Assembly: GCA_017859955.1 (NCBI GenBank)
Contig: JAFNAB010000014.1
Location: 1-64,000, forward strand
DNA: 64,000 bases
Source of the DNA: Holophagaceae bacterium
Lineage (GTDB): Bacteria > Acidobacteriota > Holophagae > Holophagales > Holophagaceae
Direction of reading: 5' to 3'
Shown here: positions 14,969 to 22,431 of the stretch, in pieces
Numbering within the stretch: the stretch's first letter is position 1
How the letters are laid out: each line of letters begins with the position of its first letter
Program-made: the position numbers and the translations under genes
Notes under the pieces: generated by a model
What the model was told of the DNA's origin: nothing
Databases searched by the model: none
The model's input: the letters and a program-made list of their open reading frames with translations, nothing else

Positions 14969-15497
14969 CCGGGCATCCATGTGTTGGGCCTCCATGGCTC
15001 CTCCCTTTGGGTGGAGGAGCGTGGTCTGTAATGTTTATCCGCGCTCATGTCGTCGTGATTCTGTCAAGGCAAAAAGATCGAGATGGCCCCTTGGAAATGT
15101 TTGAAATAATTGACCACATATCAAATCATGTAACATGATAAATATCAGCATTTGTGTTATCTGGTTTTTGAATTCCGCATCTTTTGTGGAAAACCTTGCG
15201 GATTGCCCCCCTTTGGAGGTCCTAAACACCCTCGTTTACAGGACTTTTACATTCTGCACTCGCTTCTCGTCATGTTGTTTTTGCCTTTGTTTTCAGCATT
15301 TGCGTTCACGGGGGCGCTGGGCGAAGTGGATTTAGGTCTGTCCAGGTTTTCCACATTTTCCATTTTGTTTCGTGTTGACATCCACCTTCTCCTTCCGGTT
15401 TGAGAGGAGCCCTGGGGGCATTGGGATTCGATGTGTCATCCCTGGACTTGGTCTTCGGACATCGAATGTCACTCCCTTCCTGCGCTATCCTCAAGAG
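14969..15497. promoter_or_regulatory. AT-rich 0.5 kb gap upstream of lpxK with two palindromes
   Basis: No gene is supported here. Base composition is clearly AT-richer than the neighbours from about 15050 to 15420. It contains a perfect 15-base palindrome ATCATGTAACATGAT at 15125-15139, a TTGACA at about 15375, and a perfect 9-base inverted repeat (ATTCGATGT at 15426-15434, ACATCGAAT at 15459-15467) that would fold as a stem in the lpxK leader. These are candidate operator or leader structures; the region could also be a decayed insertion. Confidence 0.4.
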
Positions 15498-16538
15498 ATG
15501 TCATTGCTCCGCTGGTTCGCAGCTCCCCTGGCCCCCCTCTATGGGGCGGTGGTGAAGGCCCGAAACCGGGCCTTCGAAGAGCACCCCGAGAGGATCGCAA
15601 GGGTAGCTGTTCCAGTGGTATCCGTCGGTAATCTGAGCACCGGAGGAACGGGGAAGACGCCGGTGACGCTTGCGCTCGCTGAGGCGCTGGCGGGGCAAGG
15701 GTGGCCTAATGTCATCCTTTCCAGGGGTTACCGTGGAAAGCGCGAAATGGATCCCATGGATGTGGGGCCGGACTCCCATCCCCGGGAGGCAGGGGATGAA
15801 CCGGTCCTGATGGCGCGAAGGCTGGGGCCGGGCCGCGTGATCGTGGGGCGGAAGCGCCACGCGGCGGCGCTGCGGGCCGTATCTCTGGTGCCGACTCCCC
15901 GGGTGCTCTTGTTGGATGATGGCTTCCAGCACCGGGCTCTCCATCGGGATCTGGACCTCCTGCTGCTGGACGGCGTGCGGAGCTGGGGCAATGGCCGGAT
16001 GCTTCCCCTGGGGGATTTGAGGGAACCTATGGCCTCCGCAGCCCGGGCCAGCGCCCTGGTGGTGACCCGGGGGAGCCGGGCGGACCGGGCCTCGATTCTT
16101 GACTGGTGGGAGCGCCATGGCTCCGGTGGCCCGGTCTTCTGGGTGGATTTCGCCATCGGGGCGCTGCGCTGCCTGGCTACGGGGGAGCGGCGGTCGCTCC
16201 CCTCAGAGTTCGGTTCCCTTCTGGCCTTCTGTGCCCTGGGACACCCCGAGGCCTTCTATGCGGACCTTCTGGTGGCGGGCCTCTCATGGGTCGAGACCCG
16301 CTCCTTTCCGGATCACCACCCCATATCTCCCCGGGAGCTGGAAAGGCTCCAGGACGCGGCCCGGAGTGTTGGGGCCGAAGGTCTGGTCTGTACCGAAAAG
16401 GATGCCGTGAAGCTGGGCCAGGCCCACCTCCAGCGTCTGACCATGCCTCTGTGGGTGGCGGAGCAGTCCGTCCTTGGGCTGGAGCCCCTGCTGGAATTCG
16501 TGCATGAGAGGCTGGAAAAGACCTTCGGCTCCCGTTAG
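15498..16538 (+). CDS. lpxK: Tetraacyldisaccharide 4'-kinase (lipid A biosynthesis)
   Basis: 346 residues from the ATG at 15498; upstream in-frame extension is AT-rich and unlike the family. The N-terminal membrane-associated segment (LLRWFAAPLAPLYGAVVKAR) is followed by the P-loop VGNLSTGGTGKTP, then SRGYRGK, GDEPVLMARR and LLLDDGFQHRALHRDLDLLL, all diagnostic of LpxK. It phosphorylates the 4' position of lipid A disaccharide at the inner membrane, showing that the organism makes lipid A. tRNA-Gly follows 15 bases later. Confidence 0.96.
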   Translation: MSLLRWFAAPLAPLYGAVVKARNRAFEEHPERIARVAVPVVSVGNLSTGGTGKTPVTLALAEALAGQGWPNVILSRGYRGKREMDPMDVGPDSHPREAGDEPVLMARRLGPGRVIVGRKRHAAALRAVSLVPTPRVLLLDDGFQHRALHRDLDLLLLDGVRSWGNGRMLPLGDLREPMASAARASALVVTRGSRADRASILDWWERHGSGGPVFWVDFAIGALRCLATGERRSLPSEFGSLLAFCALGHPEAFYADLLVAGLSWVETRSFPDHHPISPRELERLQDAARSVGAEGLVCTEKDAVKLGQAHLQRLTMPLWVAEQSVLGLEPLLEFVHERLEKTFGSR

Positions 16539-16665: not shown

Positions 16666-18120
16666 CTATCTCAGCCTGGCCAGCAGTTCATCCAAGGGTA
16701 CGCTCACGATGGTCGTGGCCCGGTCGCTCATGGCATAGGGAAGCACGATCTCCCGTCCATGGAGCAGGGCCCCGCAGCTGTAGACGACGTTCGGGACATA
16801 GCCCTCCCGCTCCTCGCCTTCCGGGACCAGGAGGGGCTCCCGTAGGCGTCCGATGACGCGGGTCGGGTCCTGCAGGTCCAGGAGGGCCGCTCCGATGCAG
16901 TACTTCCGCAGAGGTCCCACACCATGGGTAAGGACCAGCCATCCTGCCTCGGTCTCGATGGGGGAGCCACAGTTGCCGATCTTCACCGCTTCCCAAGTCT
17001 CGGCAGGGCGGAGGAGGACTTTGGGGTCGCTCCAGTAGTGGGGGTTGTCCGAGAACATGATGAAGAGGTTCTCGTCATCCTGGCGGGAAAGCATGGCGAA
17101 ATTGCCATCAATCCTTCGGGGGAAGAGGGCCATGCCCTTGTTCTGCGCGGCTGCGCCATTGAGGGTCAGGACCCGGAAGTGTCGGAAATCCAGGGTTTCA
17201 ATGAGTTGGGGCAGGATGGCGTGGCCGTTGTAGGCCGTGTAGGTGGCGTAGTACAGCGCCGCACCGTCCTCCTCCACGAAACGGACGAAGCGCGCATCCT
17301 CAATGCCGTTGCTCTCGTTTTCCGAGACGGGGAAGATGCAGCGTTCGCTCAGGGCGAGCTCCGGCGGGAAGTCCATTTCATAGTTGGAGTCGGCAAGCCA
17401 CTGGATGCACTGGAGGGTGTTGCTGAGATCCTGGGATACGGGACGGGTTTCCCGGCGGACCCGCAGCACGCTCTGGTTCAGATCGCTGCGGGTGAAGCTT
17501 TCGCCGAGGGCCTCCATCACGGCGCCCGTATGGCTGCTGTCGAAGCCCATCTCAGTAAGCTTCACGATGAAGAGGGTCTTCTTGTAGCTGGGGTTGGGAT
17601 TGATCTCCGGGAGGGACACAAAGCGGGAAACGGGATCCAGGTGGATGGCTCCCTCGGGTTGCAGGAGACCCGTGCGGAATTCGATGGAGGAGATATGCCC
17701 TTCACCGGTGGCCCGCAGGCTCAGGATGAATCTCAGGCCCCCGGGCGGCACGCCTTTCTGGTCCGGGTGGGCGACGATGGAGGGGTTGAAGAGCGCCGCC
17801 GCCTCCAGGGCATACTCCCCCGCAAAGAGGGCACCGACAAGAAGCTTGCGCCTGAGGGAAAGGGGGCGCTGAGTGAAGACGAAGGGCAGCACGCGCTCGT
17901 AATTGGCCAGCAGCGTCGACTCGAGGTCCAGATGGCGCGAGGCGAAGTCCTGGCGAATGCCTTCCAGGGCCCGGTTCGCTTCTTCCTCATCCAGGGCGAG
18001 AACCCGCCCGATGATGGTGGTGATCCGGTGACTCTCAGAGGGGATGAAGGGGCGCAGCACCACTCGCTCGCTCTGGGGGAGAAGGGTCAGGTGGTGGCGG
18101 CGTAATGGGATGGGATTCAT
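16666..18120 (-). CDS. Glycoside hydrolase family 130 protein (mannoside phosphorylase type)
   Basis: 484 residues. Recognised by the family pattern of a five-bladed propeller: the start of the catalytic part SYEYALEAAALFNPSIV-like, and the motifs GIEDARFVRF, YYATYTAYNG, NGNFAMLSR-like (RIDGNFAMLSR), GNCGSPIETEAGWLVLTHGVG and YVPNVVYSCGAL. GH130 enzymes phosphorolyse (or hydrolyse) beta-mannosides. It overlaps the upstream GT4 gene by four bases (ATGA), so the two are translationally coupled, and the transcript ends in a clear terminator. The N-terminal ~120 residues are helical and precede the propeller. No signal peptide, so it acts in the cytoplasm. Exact substrate unknown. Confidence 0.88.
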   Translation of the reverse strand: MNPIPLRRHHLTLLPQSERVVLRPFIPSESHRITTIIGRVLALDEEEANRALEGIRQDFASRHLDLESTLLANYERVLPFVFTQRPLSLRRKLLVGALFAGEYALEAAALFNPSIVAHPDQKGVPPGGLRFILSLRATGEGHISSIEFRTGLLQPEGAIHLDPVSRFVSLPEINPNPSYKKTLFIVKLTEMGFDSSHTGAVMEALGESFTRSDLNQSVLRVRRETRPVSQDLSNTLQCIQWLADSNYEMDFPPELALSERCIFPVSENESNGIEDARFVRFVEEDGAALYYATYTAYNGHAILPQLIETLDFRHFRVLTLNGAAAQNKGMALFPRRIDGNFAMLSRQDDENLFIMFSDNPHYWSDPKVLLRPAETWEAVKIGNCGSPIETEAGWLVLTHGVGPLRKYCIGAALLDLQDPTRVIGRLREPLLVPEGEEREGYVPNVVYSCGALLHGREIVLPYAMSDRATTIVSVPLDELLARLR

Positions 18121-20402
18121 GGGGTACCGCCCTGAGGAAGCGTGATCATGTGCTTGGCGAAACTCATTTCAGCGACCGAGAGATGGAAGGCGAGGGTGGA
18201 TTCGGCCCCCTGGTTCTCGTTGACCCGGTCAGGGTGCAGGCCATCGGCGCAGCCTCCGGTGCTGGAGTCGTAGAGGGGGAGGCCGAGATCATTACGGCCC
18301 AGGAACCACTCGAAGGCCCGCTTGGCCTCCCTGGACCAGACCTCGTCCTGGGTGGCGCGGAAGGCTTCGAGGCAGGCGGCGATCATGGCCTGGGCCTCAA
18401 CCGGCTGTTGGTCGAAGTCCGCATGGTTGCCCCCCCGCTCATAGAAACCGTTGCTGCCGATGGGGCGGAAATGGCCCTCCCTCGTTTTCTGCACGGAGCA
18501 TAGCCACTCCAGGGACTTCAGGCCGATCTCCATGGCCTCCGGGTGGGTCATGCTCTGGGCGCTGAGGAGCAGGGCCTGGCAGAAGCGGGCGTTCTCATAG
18601 GTGGCACGGGGCTCGAACCAGGGCCATCGCTCGTCGGCGCAGCCTTTCCAGAGCCCGATGAGCCGGGCCACCAGCTCGGTGCGGCAGGCCACCGCCTCGG
18701 CCTTCCCCGGGAAGCTGTGCAGGTATTCGTGGATGCCCAACAGGGTAAAGGCCCAGGCGCGAGGGGAGGTGAAACTTTCCACGATGGGCAAGCCTCCCTC
18801 GAAGAGCAGGGCTGAAAGCTTGCGATGGCCCTCATTCCGCGATCGCCCCGCTCCGGTGCCCACAGCCCAGAGAGCCCTGGCATGACTGTCCTCACTCCCG
18901 GCCTCCTCCAACCACTGCCGACTGTGGTTCATAAAGTTGCGGAAACGGCCGGTCCGGCGATTCAGGGCCGCGGACAGGAACGCGAGGTAATTGGTGGCCA
19001 GGCGTTCCAAGGGCTCGGAGGGAGGGCGGCCACCCAGTTCATCCATCAGATTGCACAGGATGAAGGCCCGGGCGTTATCGTCCGTGCAGTAGCCTTCCTC
19101 GTAATTCGGGACATTGAAGCTGGCGTGCTGAAAAATACCGGTGTCATCGCTCATGCGGGCGATGTGATCCAGGCGCAGCGGGGGCAGGTCGTAGGGGCGG
19201 CTCGCCAGGGTCCATTCCGCAAAGGCCTTACGGGGCAGGGCACGCCGGTCCGCTCCTGCGTGGGCGAAGGACTGGAGGTAGCGCTTGGCGATGGCGGGCC
19301 AGATCATCTCCCTTCCCATGGCGTAGGCCCTCTTGCGGGTCTCCAGGAGGCGGGTCGGGTCGTCCAGGTAGGCACAGACCCCCTCGGCGATGGCCTGGGG
19401 GTTCCGGAAGGGCACCAGGATGCCCCGTCCATCGGCCAGGAGTTCCTGGGCGTGCCAATAGGGAGTGGAGACCACGGCCTTCCCCGCCCCGAAGACATAG
19501 GCCAGGGTGCCGGAGGTGATCTGGGCCTCATTGAGGTAGGGGGTGAGGTAGATGTCCGTCGCCCCGATGAACTCCTTGAGATCCTCGAGGGACACGAACT
19601 GGTTGTAGAAGATCACGTGTTCCTTGACGCCGCAGTCCTCGGCCAGCCTTTCCAGCCCCAGGCGGTAGCTCTCGCCTTCCCGGGCGACCAAGTGGGGGTG
19701 GGTGGCGCCCAAGACGATATAAACCACGTTCGGGTGGCGCTTCACGATGCCGGGCAGTGCCTCGATGACGTTTTCGATGCCCTTGCCGGGCCCCAGCAGG
19801 CCGAAGGTGAGGAGCACGCTCCTCCCTTCCACGCCGAACTGGGGCTTGTAATAGCTGGAGTCGATGAAGGGCAGGTCGTGGATACCGTGGGGGATGATGT
19901 CCACCTTGGAGGAGGGCACCCCATAGGTCTCCTGAAGGATCTCCAGCCCCTTGTGGGCCATCACCACCAGGCGGTCGCTGCAGCGCACCAGCTCTTCCAT
20001 CACCTTCCGCTGGGCCGGATCTGGGTCCTGCAGCACGGTGTGCAGGGTGGTCACCACTGGCATCCGCACTTCCCGGAGCAGGGCCAGGAGGTGGCTTCCG
20101 GCGGGCCCGCCGTAGATGCCGAATTCGTGCTGCACGCTGAGCACCTGGGCGTTGCTGAAATTGAGGAAATCCGCACCGCGCCGGTAGGAGTCCAGGTTCC
20201 GCTGATCCAGTTCGAAGCGCACCCGGGGAGGATAGTCGTAGCCCTCCATCCGGTCATTGACGGCGCCCGTGAAGCACAGAGCGTTGGGAGCAGCCAGGGC
20301 CACCGCCTCGCAAAGATCGTGGGTGAAAGTGGCGATGCCGCAGAGCCGCGGCAGATAGCCGCCCAGGAAGGCAATGCGTTCAGGCAGGGTGGAGTCCATC
20401 AT
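18117..20402 (-). CDS. GT4 glycosyltransferase with C-terminal (alpha/alpha)-type domain
   Basis: 761 residues from the ATG at 20402, chosen because TGAGGTG lies a few bases before it. The N-terminal half is a GT-B, family 4 glycosyltransferase: GGYLPRLCGIATFTHDL at the acceptor side, VLSVQHEFGIYGG, LLTFGLLGPGKGIENVIEAL and the nucleotide-sugar motif TPYLNEAQITSGTLAYVFGAG. The second half (about 400-761) is helical, with repeated W/D-rich segments (YCTDDNARAFILCN, RWPWFEPRATYENARFCQAL, HADFDQQPVEAQAM), resembling an (alpha/alpha)6 barrel. Coupled to GH130 by overlap, suggesting synthesis and phosphorolysis of the same mannose-containing oligosaccharide. The sugar donor is not determined. Confidence 0.87.
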   Translation of the reverse strand: MMDSTLPERIAFLGGYLPRLCGIATFTHDLCEAVALAAPNALCFTGAVNDRMEGYDYPPRVRFELDQRNLDSYRRGADFLNFSNAQVLSVQHEFGIYGGPAGSHLLALLREVRMPVVTTLHTVLQDPDPAQRKVMEELVRCSDRLVVMAHKGLEILQETYGVPSSKVDIIPHGIHDLPFIDSSYYKPQFGVEGRSVLLTFGLLGPGKGIENVIEALPGIVKRHPNVVYIVLGATHPHLVAREGESYRLGLERLAEDCGVKEHVIFYNQFVSLEDLKEFIGATDIYLTPYLNEAQITSGTLAYVFGAGKAVVSTPYWHAQELLADGRGILVPFRNPQAIAEGVCAYLDDPTRLLETRKRAYAMGREMIWPAIAKRYLQSFAHAGADRRALPRKAFAEWTLASRPYDLPPLRLDHIARMSDDTGIFQHASFNVPNYEEGYCTDDNARAFILCNLMDELGGRPPSEPLERLATNYLAFLSAALNRRTGRFRNFMNHSRQWLEEAGSEDSHARALWAVGTGAGRSRNEGHRKLSALLFEGGLPIVESFTSPRAWAFTLLGIHEYLHSFPGKAEAVACRTELVARLIGLWKGCADERWPWFEPRATYENARFCQALLLSAQSMTHPEAMEIGLKSLEWLCSVQKTREGHFRPIGSNGFYERGGNHADFDQQPVEAQAMIAACLEAFRATQDEVWSREAKRAFEWFLGRNDLGLPLYDSSTGGCADGLHPDRVNENQGAESTLAFHLSVAEMSFAKHMITLPQGGTP

Positions 20403-20514
20403 CTGGCACCTCACAATCGCTGCAACACGCGTTCGCTGCACCAAGTTGTCTGGCGCTGAGCGTAGCACGGGGAAGGAAGGGCCTGTCCCGGTCCCGGTAA
20501 GGTATCCTCGCCCT

Positions 20515-22431
20515 ATGAGTGCCCTCGACCCCATCGCCGCTGTCTCCTATCGCGCCCTGGCCCTGGCGGGCCTGAATCGTTCCGGTTCCCCCTGGTCGGA
20601 ATGCCCCCCCCGGCTTTTGGTAGCCGATGTGGAGAGGCAGCGGATCGGGCTGCTGGTGGAAGGGGTGCTCCAGGCGGAATTCCCCATCTCCACGGCGCTG
20701 GCGGGCCTGGGCTCAGAGGAGGACTCCTTCCGGACGCCCTTGGGTTGGCATCGGATCCAGGCCCGGATCGGTGAGGGGGCGGTTCCCGGGACCATCTTCC
20801 GGGAGCGAGTGGACACGGGGCAGGTCTGGAAGGGGGAGGCCTCGGAGGCTGATCTCATCCTGACCCGCATCCTAAGGCTGGAAGGGCTGGAGGAGGGCTC
20901 CAACCGGGGATCCGGACTGGACAGCCTGGAACGCTGTATCTACATCCACGGCACCAATCGGGAGGATCAGATCGGCCGGCCGGTCTCCCACGGTTGCCTC
21001 CGGCTGACCAATGCCGACATGCTTGACCTCTTCGCTCAGGTCGAGGAAGGGGATGCCCTCCTGGTTGCTGAAGGCGGCATGGCTGCCATGGCGGGTCTGC
21101 ACTTCGCCGGTGTGGCGGGGAGCGGCATGAGCGCATTGGTCCAATTCCTGGCCATGAAGGGGATTCCCGTTTCCGGCAGTGATCGGAGCTTCGACCGGGG
21201 CCAGCGCCCGGAAGCCAGGGCACAACTGGAGCGGTTGGGGATCCGCATCCTGCCCCAGGATGGCAGCGGTGTGGCCGCCGCCAGCGGCGTGGTCTATTCC
21301 ACGGCGGTGGAGGAGGATGTGCCGGACTTCGCCGAGGCCCGGCGCCTGGGGGTGCCCCTGCTGCACCGTTCCGAGCTGCTGGCCCACCTGGTCGGATGTC
21401 ATCGCACCATCGCCATCACGGGCACCAGTGGGAAGTCCACCACCACCGCCATGGTCTTCGAAATCCTGCGGGGGGCCGGCAAGGACCCTTCGGTCATCAC
21501 CGGGGGAGAACTGCCCAGCCTCCAGGGCGAAGGCCTCTGGGGCAACGCCTGGGCCGGGGCTTCGGACCTGCTGGTCATCGAGGCCGACGAGAGTGACGGC
21601 ACCGTCGTGCGCTACCACCCGGCGGTGGGCCTGATCCTGAACCTCCAGAAGGACCACAAGGAGCCTGAGGCGGTGGCAGAGCTGTTCCGGGTCTTCCGTG
21701 CCCAGGCCCGGGAGGCCTTCGTGGTGGGGGAGGCCTCCAACCTGGCGGAATTCGCGCCGGGGGCCATTGTCTTCGGCCAGGGAGAGCGGGCCAAGGTCCG
21801 GGCCGAGGAGGTCAGCCTCACGGCGGAGGGTTCCAGCTTCCGGGTCAAGGACACCCTGTTCCAGTTGCCTGCGCCGGGGCGGCACAACCTGGAGAACGCC
21901 CTGGCAGCCATCGCCGCCTGCCGGACCGTGGGGGTGCCCCTGAAGGACATGGTGGAGCCCCTCGGAGCTTTCCAGGGGGTGGCCCGCCGCTTCCAGGTCC
22001 TGGGCGAACGCCGGGGTGTCCAGGTGGTGGACGATTTCGGCCACAACCCGGCCAAGGTCGCGGCCTCCATCCGTACGGCCCAGCTCCGTGCCCACCGGGT
22101 GCTGGCGGTCTACCAGCCCCACGGCTACGCTCCCACCCGCTTCCTCCGCAAGGACTTCGTCCAGACCTTCGCCACCGAGCTTCGGCCCGAGGACCGCTTC
22201 TGGATGCTGGAGATCTTCTTTGCCGGGGGCAGCGCCCAGCGGGACTTCTCCTCCAGCGACCTGGTGGCGGAGATCGCCGCCCGGGGCAGGGCTGCGGAGT
22301 TCGCCCCCTCCCGGGATTGGCTGGTGGAGCGTCTGGCCGCGGAGGCCCGGGAGGGGGACCTGATCCTGGTCATGGGGGCCCGGGATCCCTCGCTGACGGA
22401 ACTGGCCCGGCGGATTCTTCAGGCCCTATAG
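20515..22431 (+). CDS. Fusion of cytosolic YkuD-type L,D-carboxypeptidase-like domain and MurC/Mpl-like ligase
   Basis: 638 residues. Residues 1-185 form a YkuD domain without signal peptide. TPLGWHRIQARIG, LILTRILRLEGLEEGSNRG and IYIHGTNREDQIG, followed by the catalytic SHGCLRL (His159, Cys161), closely follow the pattern of the cytosolic LdcV-type L,D-carboxypeptidases. From residue 195 a complete Mur ligase follows: Rossmann HFAGVAGSGMSALVQFL, ATP loop ITGTSGKSTTTAM (usual MurC/Mpl is GTHGKTTT), EADESDGTVVRYHP, ligand motif LPAPGRHNLENALAAI and VVDDFGHNPAKVAASI. Inference: the first domain would trim tetrapeptides to tripeptides and the second would attach the peptide (or L-Ala) to UDP-MurNAc, i.e. 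peptidoglycan recycling in one chain. Divergent from the GT4 gene. The ligase substrate is uncertain because of the altered loop. Confidence 0.85.
   Translation: MSALDPIAAVSYRALALAGLNRSGSPWSECPPRLLVADVERQRIGLLVEGVLQAEFPISTALAGLGSEEDSFRTPLGWHRIQARIGEGAVPGTIFRERVDTGQVWKGEASEADLILTRILRLEGLEEGSNRGSGLDSLERCIYIHGTNREDQIGRPVSHGCLRLTNADMLDLFAQVEEGDALLVAEGGMAAMAGLHFAGVAGSGMSALVQFLAMKGIPVSGSDRSFDRGQRPEARAQLERLGIRILPQDGSGVAAASGVVYSTAVEEDVPDFAEARRLGVPLLHRSELLAHLVGCHRTIAITGTSGKSTTTAMVFEILRGAGKDPSVITGGELPSLQGEGLWGNAWAGASDLLVIEADESDGTVVRYHPAVGLILNLQKDHKEPEAVAELFRVFRAQAREAFVVGEASNLAEFAPGAIVFGQGERAKVRAEEVSLTAEGSSFRVKDTLFQLPAPGRHNLENALAAIAACRTVGVPLKDMVEPLGAFQGVARRFQVLGERRGVQVVDDFGHNPAKVAASIRTAQLRAHRVLAVYQPHGYAPTRFLRKDFVQTFATELRPEDRFWMLEIFFAGGSAQRDFSSSDLVAEIAARGRAAEFAPSRDWLVERLAAEAREGDLILVMGARDPSLTELARRILQAL

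Follow-up and report, generated by a model that had tools for sequence, protein, structure and literature searches.

The window examined in this study is a 64,000-nucleotide stretch of DNA from a Holophagaceae bacterium (GenBank assembly GCA_017859955.1, contig JAFNAB010000014.1, positions 1–64,000 of the forward strand). A single open frame on its plus strand (20515..22431) encodes a 638-amino-acid fusion protein, in which a YkuD L,D-carboxypeptidase-like domain is followed by a ligase of the MurC/Mpl class. All four Pfam domains of the protein scored above their cut-offs. The YkuD domain (PF03734; residues 33–181, 20611..21057) reached 66.9 bits against a gathering score of 23.4, with an E-value of 4e-18. 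It carries the catalytic motif HGT with His145 (codon 20947..20949) and the motif SHGC, starting at residue 158, with His159-Gly-Cys161 (20989..20997), in which Cys161 is the nucleophile. Across 66 fused or adjacent relatives, His145 and Cys161 were invariant and His159 was retained in 62. The blocks GWHRI, ILTRILRLEGL and NRG were located at residues 77, 115 and 130, respectively. No hydrophobic stretch was present at the N-terminus (maximum Kyte-Doolittle value of 1.37, versus 2.2–2.5 in a pair of secreted YkuD proteins from sister genomes), and the domain is thus without an export signal.

A linker of approximately residues 182–194 (21058..21096) leads into the ligase, which consists of an N-terminal domain with the GVAGSGMS loop (Pfam Mur_ligase; residues 195–293, 21097..21393), a middle, ATP domain (Mur_ligase_M and structure model; residues 301–469, 21415..21921) and a C-terminal, incoming-substrate domain (Mur_ligase_C; residues 491–623, 21985..22383), all on the plus strand. 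The P-loop GTSGKS (residues 303–308, 21421..21438) has Ser as its third residue, where MurC and Mpl have His. The motifs DDFGHNP (residues 506–512, 22030..22050) and QPHGYAPTR (residues 534–542, 22114..22140) lie in the C-terminal domain, and MGARDPSL (residues 620–627, 22372..22395) is the signature of the ligase clade described below. The fusion frame is open upstream as far as 20374 and overlaps the start of a divergent glycosyltransferase-like open reading frame (ORF; 18117-20534). The start codons of both are uncertain; homologues of the fusion begin near 20515.

A domain search of related genomes, proposed in an earlier note made from the sequence of this stretch alone, showed that about 25 Holophagaceae genomes, including single-contig ones, carry the YkuD-ligase fusion, as do two Fibrobacterota loci (L193 and L195). 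Near full-length matches were obtained from two dozen further Holophagaceae genomes, from genome G190 and from the same-genus relative G297. The G190 protein (L029, contig C46) is likewise encoded by a single ORF and has an insertion of about 40 residues at the domain junction. The source genome is in draft form, in 224 contigs, which would allow the fusion to be an assembly or frame artefact. However, its presence in so many Holophagaceae genomes and, independently, in Fibrobacterota contradicts such an origin, which was given practically no weight and was rejected. The earlier note had described a leaderless YkuD domain with the above residues and blocks and a complete MurC/Mpl-like ligase from residue 195, and had considered a frame artefact near residue 190; the described features could be reproduced, and the frame is real. 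The YkuD domain was not found in five reduced or divergent Holophagaceae genomes (G182, G298, G302, G306 and G312), some of which measure just 0.9–1.2 Mb; genome reduction may have removed the recycling fusion here.

The YkuD domain had been labelled as LdcV-type in the earlier note. LdcV is a LAS-family zinc peptidase (PMC8649774) with a different fold, and this assignment was rejected. The best NCBIfam match of the domain was ElsL (NF040925) at 117.5 bits, under the cut-off of 270. ElsL, the cytosolic YkuD L,D-carboxypeptidase of A. baumannii, is the nearest characterised YkuD carboxypeptidase (PMC8649774); it shares with the window domain the YkuD fold, the Cys nucleophile and the lack of an export signal, and would share a recycling role ahead of a peptide ligase, but it is a stand-alone protein. 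The absence of an export signal, as in ElsL-like cytosolic enzymes, was accompanied here by fusion to an ATP-using enzyme. A structure model of the YkuD domain alone was mediocre (pLDDT 72.6), and its matches in the Protein Data Bank (PDB) support the YkuD superfamily only. The domain can be described as an ElsL-like, candidate L,D-carboxypeptidase that converts tetrapeptide to tripeptide. It might instead be an L,D-transpeptidase or a D-amino-acid exchange enzyme, with no hydrolytic role, in keeping with its Pfam family and with the nearest solved structures, most of which are L,D-transpeptidases; hydrolysis and exchange are inseparable by sequence alone. This is nevertheless improbable, as the domain occupies a cytosolic context with no sacculus, its best NCBIfam match is a carboxypeptidase, and a hydrolase family (LdcA) takes its position in Alphaproteobacteria.

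Assessment of the ligase confirmed its membership of the MurC/Mpl class, based on the three Pfam Mur domains and a MurC-like fold. It scored 297.5 bits on the murC model TIGR01082, its best family match (cut-off 335.1), and 111 bits on the Mpl model TIGR01081 (cut-off 388.7). Six other members of its clade scored 273–314 bits on the murC model, all under the cut-off, and no NCBIfam model claims any of the members tested. The motif (S/T)AFFDKRSK, which follows the EYD site in Mpl, was missing and replaced by EADESDGTVVRYHP; four reference Mpl sequences carry EGDEYDTAYFDK or EGDEYDTAFFDK at this site. Without this family motif, the fusion ligase falls outside the Mpl family, and orthology to Mpl was rejected on score, motif and tree.

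A scan of approximately 85,000 species genomes revealed relatives of the ligase in Krumholzibacteriota, Fibrobacterota, Elusimicrobiota, Bacteroidota, Kiritimatiellota, Lentisphaerota, Riflebacteria and Alphaproteobacteria, while plasmid records yielded solely MurC-like matches of 31–32% identity. In the maximum-likelihood tree, a branch with SH-aLRT 100 separates the 43 rows of the clade from MurC and Mpl, and the Holophagaceae group with a Krumholzibacteriota sequence. The clade is marked by Ser, Ala or Cys in place of His in GTHGK, HNP in place of HHP, QPHGxxP in place of QPHRYxR, and GARD in place of GAGD. The third P-loop residue was Ser in 159, Ala in five and Cys in two clade members, and His in all 50 MurC sequences. 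By these sequence comparisons, the ligase is a member of a third, unnamed clade of the MurC/Mpl class, which covers at least seven phyla.

In the MurC of H. influenzae (HiMurC), the incoming amino acid is contacted by His376, Arg377, Arg380, Tyr346 and His348 (PMC3060825). Alignment placed Phe508, His510, His536, Gly537 and Pro540 of the fusion ligase at HiMurC positions 346, 348, 376, 377 and 380, respectively, and Asn511 at His349. Both arginines of the L-Ala site, Arg377 and Arg380, are therefore replaced. All 50 MurC sequences have Arg at position 380, and none of the 166 clade members does; all four Mpl sequences have Ser there. Loss of these arginines would be expected if L-Ala arrives with its carboxylate already engaged in a peptide bond, as with Mpl. 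The earlier note had taken GTSGKS as a possible sign of shifted specificity; the P-loop was confirmed and proved to be a clade mark, whereas the telling change for substrate choice appears to be the loss of Arg377 and Arg380.

These residues bear on whether the ligase could be a second MurC, an isozyme adding L-Ala to UDP-MurNAc, with the YkuD domain merely regulating or tethering it. TIGR01082 is the best family match and the fold is nearest to MurC, and the two share the N-domain glycine loop, the ATP site and about 30–34% identity (PDB 1p3d). Against this, every clade member tested fell below the murC cut-off, both L-Ala-site arginines are replaced, and the linkage to two unrelated L,D-carboxypeptidases described below would be left unexplained. 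Moreover, the source genome (G000; 3.76 Mb, 95% complete) already has a canonical murC (G000:C61:7402-8766), with GSHGKTT and FQPHRYTRT, at 556.7 bits versus the cut-off of 335, so that the fusion ligase is not its sole MurC. A MurC isozyme is thus very improbable.

The genomic surroundings of clade ligases point to a peptide-recycling role. At the site of the linker, Krumholzibacteriota and most Fibrobacterota relatives have two overlapping genes instead. In L053 (Krumholzibacteriota) and in L075 and L076 (Fibrobacterota), a separate YkuD gene lies immediately upstream of the ligase gene and overlaps it. Among 40 further Fibrobacterota loci, selected from the lower-scoring matches outside Fibrobacter, YkuD adjoined the ligase in 30, on the same strand and with overlaps mostly of 14–59 nt; two of the 30 are the single fused frames L193 and L195. 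The ligase tree requires at least two fusion events, which gave rise to the Holophagaceae and the Fibrobacterota fusions; both are nested beside gene-pair relatives. The YkuD tree was broadly congruent with it, so the pair was apparently inherited as a unit; both trees come from quick searches in which SH-aLRT was the sole measure of support.

In Alphaproteobacteria, a peptidase S66 LD-carboxypeptidase of the LdcA family was found within 1.5 kb of the ligase in 20 of 27 clade loci (L211–L237), with 10 pairs co-directional and 10 divergent. Pfam confirmed eight of the 20 S66 neighbours, including the weakest, as well as those of L079 and L081. In L079, L081 and among L211–L237, the S66 gene lies directly downstream of the ligase or is divergent. 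LdcA is a serine peptidase whose fold is unrelated to that of YkuD, so that what the two carboxypeptidase families have in common is the reaction they would catalyse. The occurrence of two unrelated folds with one activity next to a single ligase clade is difficult to account for in any other way. Chance linkage is negligible even under generous assumptions, with the probabilities not to be read literally because related species are not independent. The ligase-S66 pairs may answer the 'missing Mpl' in some Alphaproteobacteria.

In five Elusimicrobiota loci (L058, L062, L067, L068 and L080), a dapB-like gene lies upstream of the ligase, preceded in four of the five by an asd-like gene. As asd and dapB belong to diaminopimelate synthesis, this arrangement was counted as support, linking the ligase to diaminopimelate supply. 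Some of the ligases at these loci have a Cys-rich C-terminal tail.

The recycling genes of carrier genomes were consistent with a replacement of Mpl. G000 has AmpG (429 bits, cut-off 350). A second YkuD gene, an S66 LdcA and an Mpl above cut-off were not found in this genome, so that of the separate murC and mpl considered in the earlier note, only the former was recovered. Given AmpG and no S66 LdcA, the fusion is the sole candidate found in G000 for either step, LdcV-type enzymes not having been searched for. Canonical Mpl exceeded the cut-off in none of the 12 Holophagaceae genomes, against 62 of the 137 genomes from other Acidobacteriota (Fisher p 0.0014); two genomes of a sister family in the same class had Mpl-like matches of 324–341 bits. 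Mpl was above cut-off in none of 28 clade-carrying genomes from other phyla.

It is likely that the fusion is a cytosolic bifunctional enzyme of peptidoglycan recycling, which would trim tetrapeptide and ligate the resulting tripeptide to UDP-MurNAc as a non-orthologous analogue of Mpl. Muropeptides would enter via AmpG, and the stem peptide would then be released and trimmed from tetrapeptide to tripeptide by the YkuD domain. The ligase domain would use ATP to activate the lactyl carboxylate of UDP-MurNAc and join it to the amino group of the tripeptide, yielding UDP-MurNAc-tripeptide, to which MurF could add D-Ala-D-Ala. Having both steps in one protein may keep harmful tetrapeptide precursors from forming. 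Mpl works 44-fold more slowly on tetrapeptide (5.9 per min) than on tripeptide (260 per min) (PMC3060825). Both E. coli and A. baumannii are harmed when tetrapeptide is re-used without trimming (PMC13046382, PMC8649774). A pairing of ligase and trimming therefore makes sense, and coupling would lower the risk. The proposal is built on the domain architecture and the intact catalytic residues, on the clade to which the ligase belongs and its linkage to two unrelated carboxypeptidase families, and on the absence of canonical Mpl and the loss of the L-Ala arginines; from these we infer the substrates, the order of both reactions and the benefit of fusion. The combination of YkuD trimming with Mpl-like ligation suggested in the earlier note is thus the best-supported reading, except that the ligase is not Mpl. 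Overall, the earlier observation was confirmed; its interpretation was partly supported, being correct in its main lines but needing the corrections given above.

The ligase could act on another peptide, such as L-Ala-D-Glu or the intact tetrapeptide, or on another acceptor, such as a sugar nucleotide different from UDP-MurNAc, with the carboxypeptidase editing the product. The clade's own conserved residues (Asn511 and GARD), found in neither MurC nor Mpl, would accord with this, and the data are compatible with either order of the reactions, trimming before ligation or editing of the product. However, the MurC-class N-domain loop GxxGxGMS is retained, and replacement of Mpl in the same lineage favours the same substrate, which makes a different substrate unlikely.

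Extended to the whole clade, the proposal is likely, if somewhat less firmly held: the third clade would be the peptide-recycling ligase of many supposedly Mpl-less bacteria in at least seven phyla, coupled to the L,D-carboxypeptidase of each lineage and fused to YkuD at least twice to give a one-protein trim-and-ligate enzyme. Several findings weigh against the recycling interpretation. Clade members score as MurC (273–314 bits), far above their Mpl score, and the ligase model was nearer to MurC 1p3d (TM 0.89) than to Mpl 3hn7 (0.66). In members from Fibrobacter proper, Bacteroidota, Elusimicrobiota and Kiritimatiellota, the ligase has no carboxypeptidase beside it. In a few of the YkuD partners (L053, L177, L195 and L208), Gln or Gly takes the place of the His of SHGC, and these proteins are possibly altered or inactive. 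Two Bacteroidota genomes contain a third MurC/Mpl-class match, a possible divergent Mpl, and the cut-off may miss a Bacteroidota-type Mpl. Mpl exclusivity is also uninformative in Alphaproteobacteria, where none of 57 genomes exceeded the cut-off, whether clade carriers or not.

Like Mpl, the fusion ligase is a three-domain ligase of the MurC class that lacks Arg377 and Arg380 and would join recycled tripeptide to UDP-MurNAc; unlike Mpl, it belongs to a separate clade with Ser for His in the P-loop, and is fused to, or in relatives often beside, its carboxypeptidase. A MurB/MurC fusion in Verrucomicrobium spinosum provides a precedent for a lineage-restricted fusion of a MurC-class ligase (PMC4803751), although it serves de novo synthesis rather than recycling and has another partner domain. 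No report of a YkuD-Mur ligase fusion, which the earlier note had not known from the literature, or of a third clade was found in open-licence papers; the novelty is provisional, as the literature search was confined to these. Many bacteria that import muropeptides are said to be without Mpl and LdcA and assumed to degrade stem peptides (PMC9790009, PMC11980594, PMC13046382). If the proposal is true, a non-orthologous Mpl analogue coupled to its trimming enzyme changes this view of Holophagaceae, of Fibrobacterota and of some Alphaproteobacteria, perhaps also of Elusimicrobiota and some Bacteroidota, and the annotation of clade members as MurC is functionally wrong. The wider ligase clade is the larger finding and offers a new ligase for making muropeptide precursors, while the fusion provides a single-protein system for asking whether trimming precedes or follows ligation.

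Further features were noted by eye. In two Chitinophagaceae loci (L057 and L072), the ligase lies between histidine-degradation-like genes (hutH and hutU upstream, hutI downstream). No obvious recycling partner was seen among the neighbours of AmpG on contig C99 of G000, and no recycling cluster among the neighbours of the fusion gene in the window. The window ORF at 15372-16538 was judged to be LpxK-like (GNLSTGGTGKTPV).
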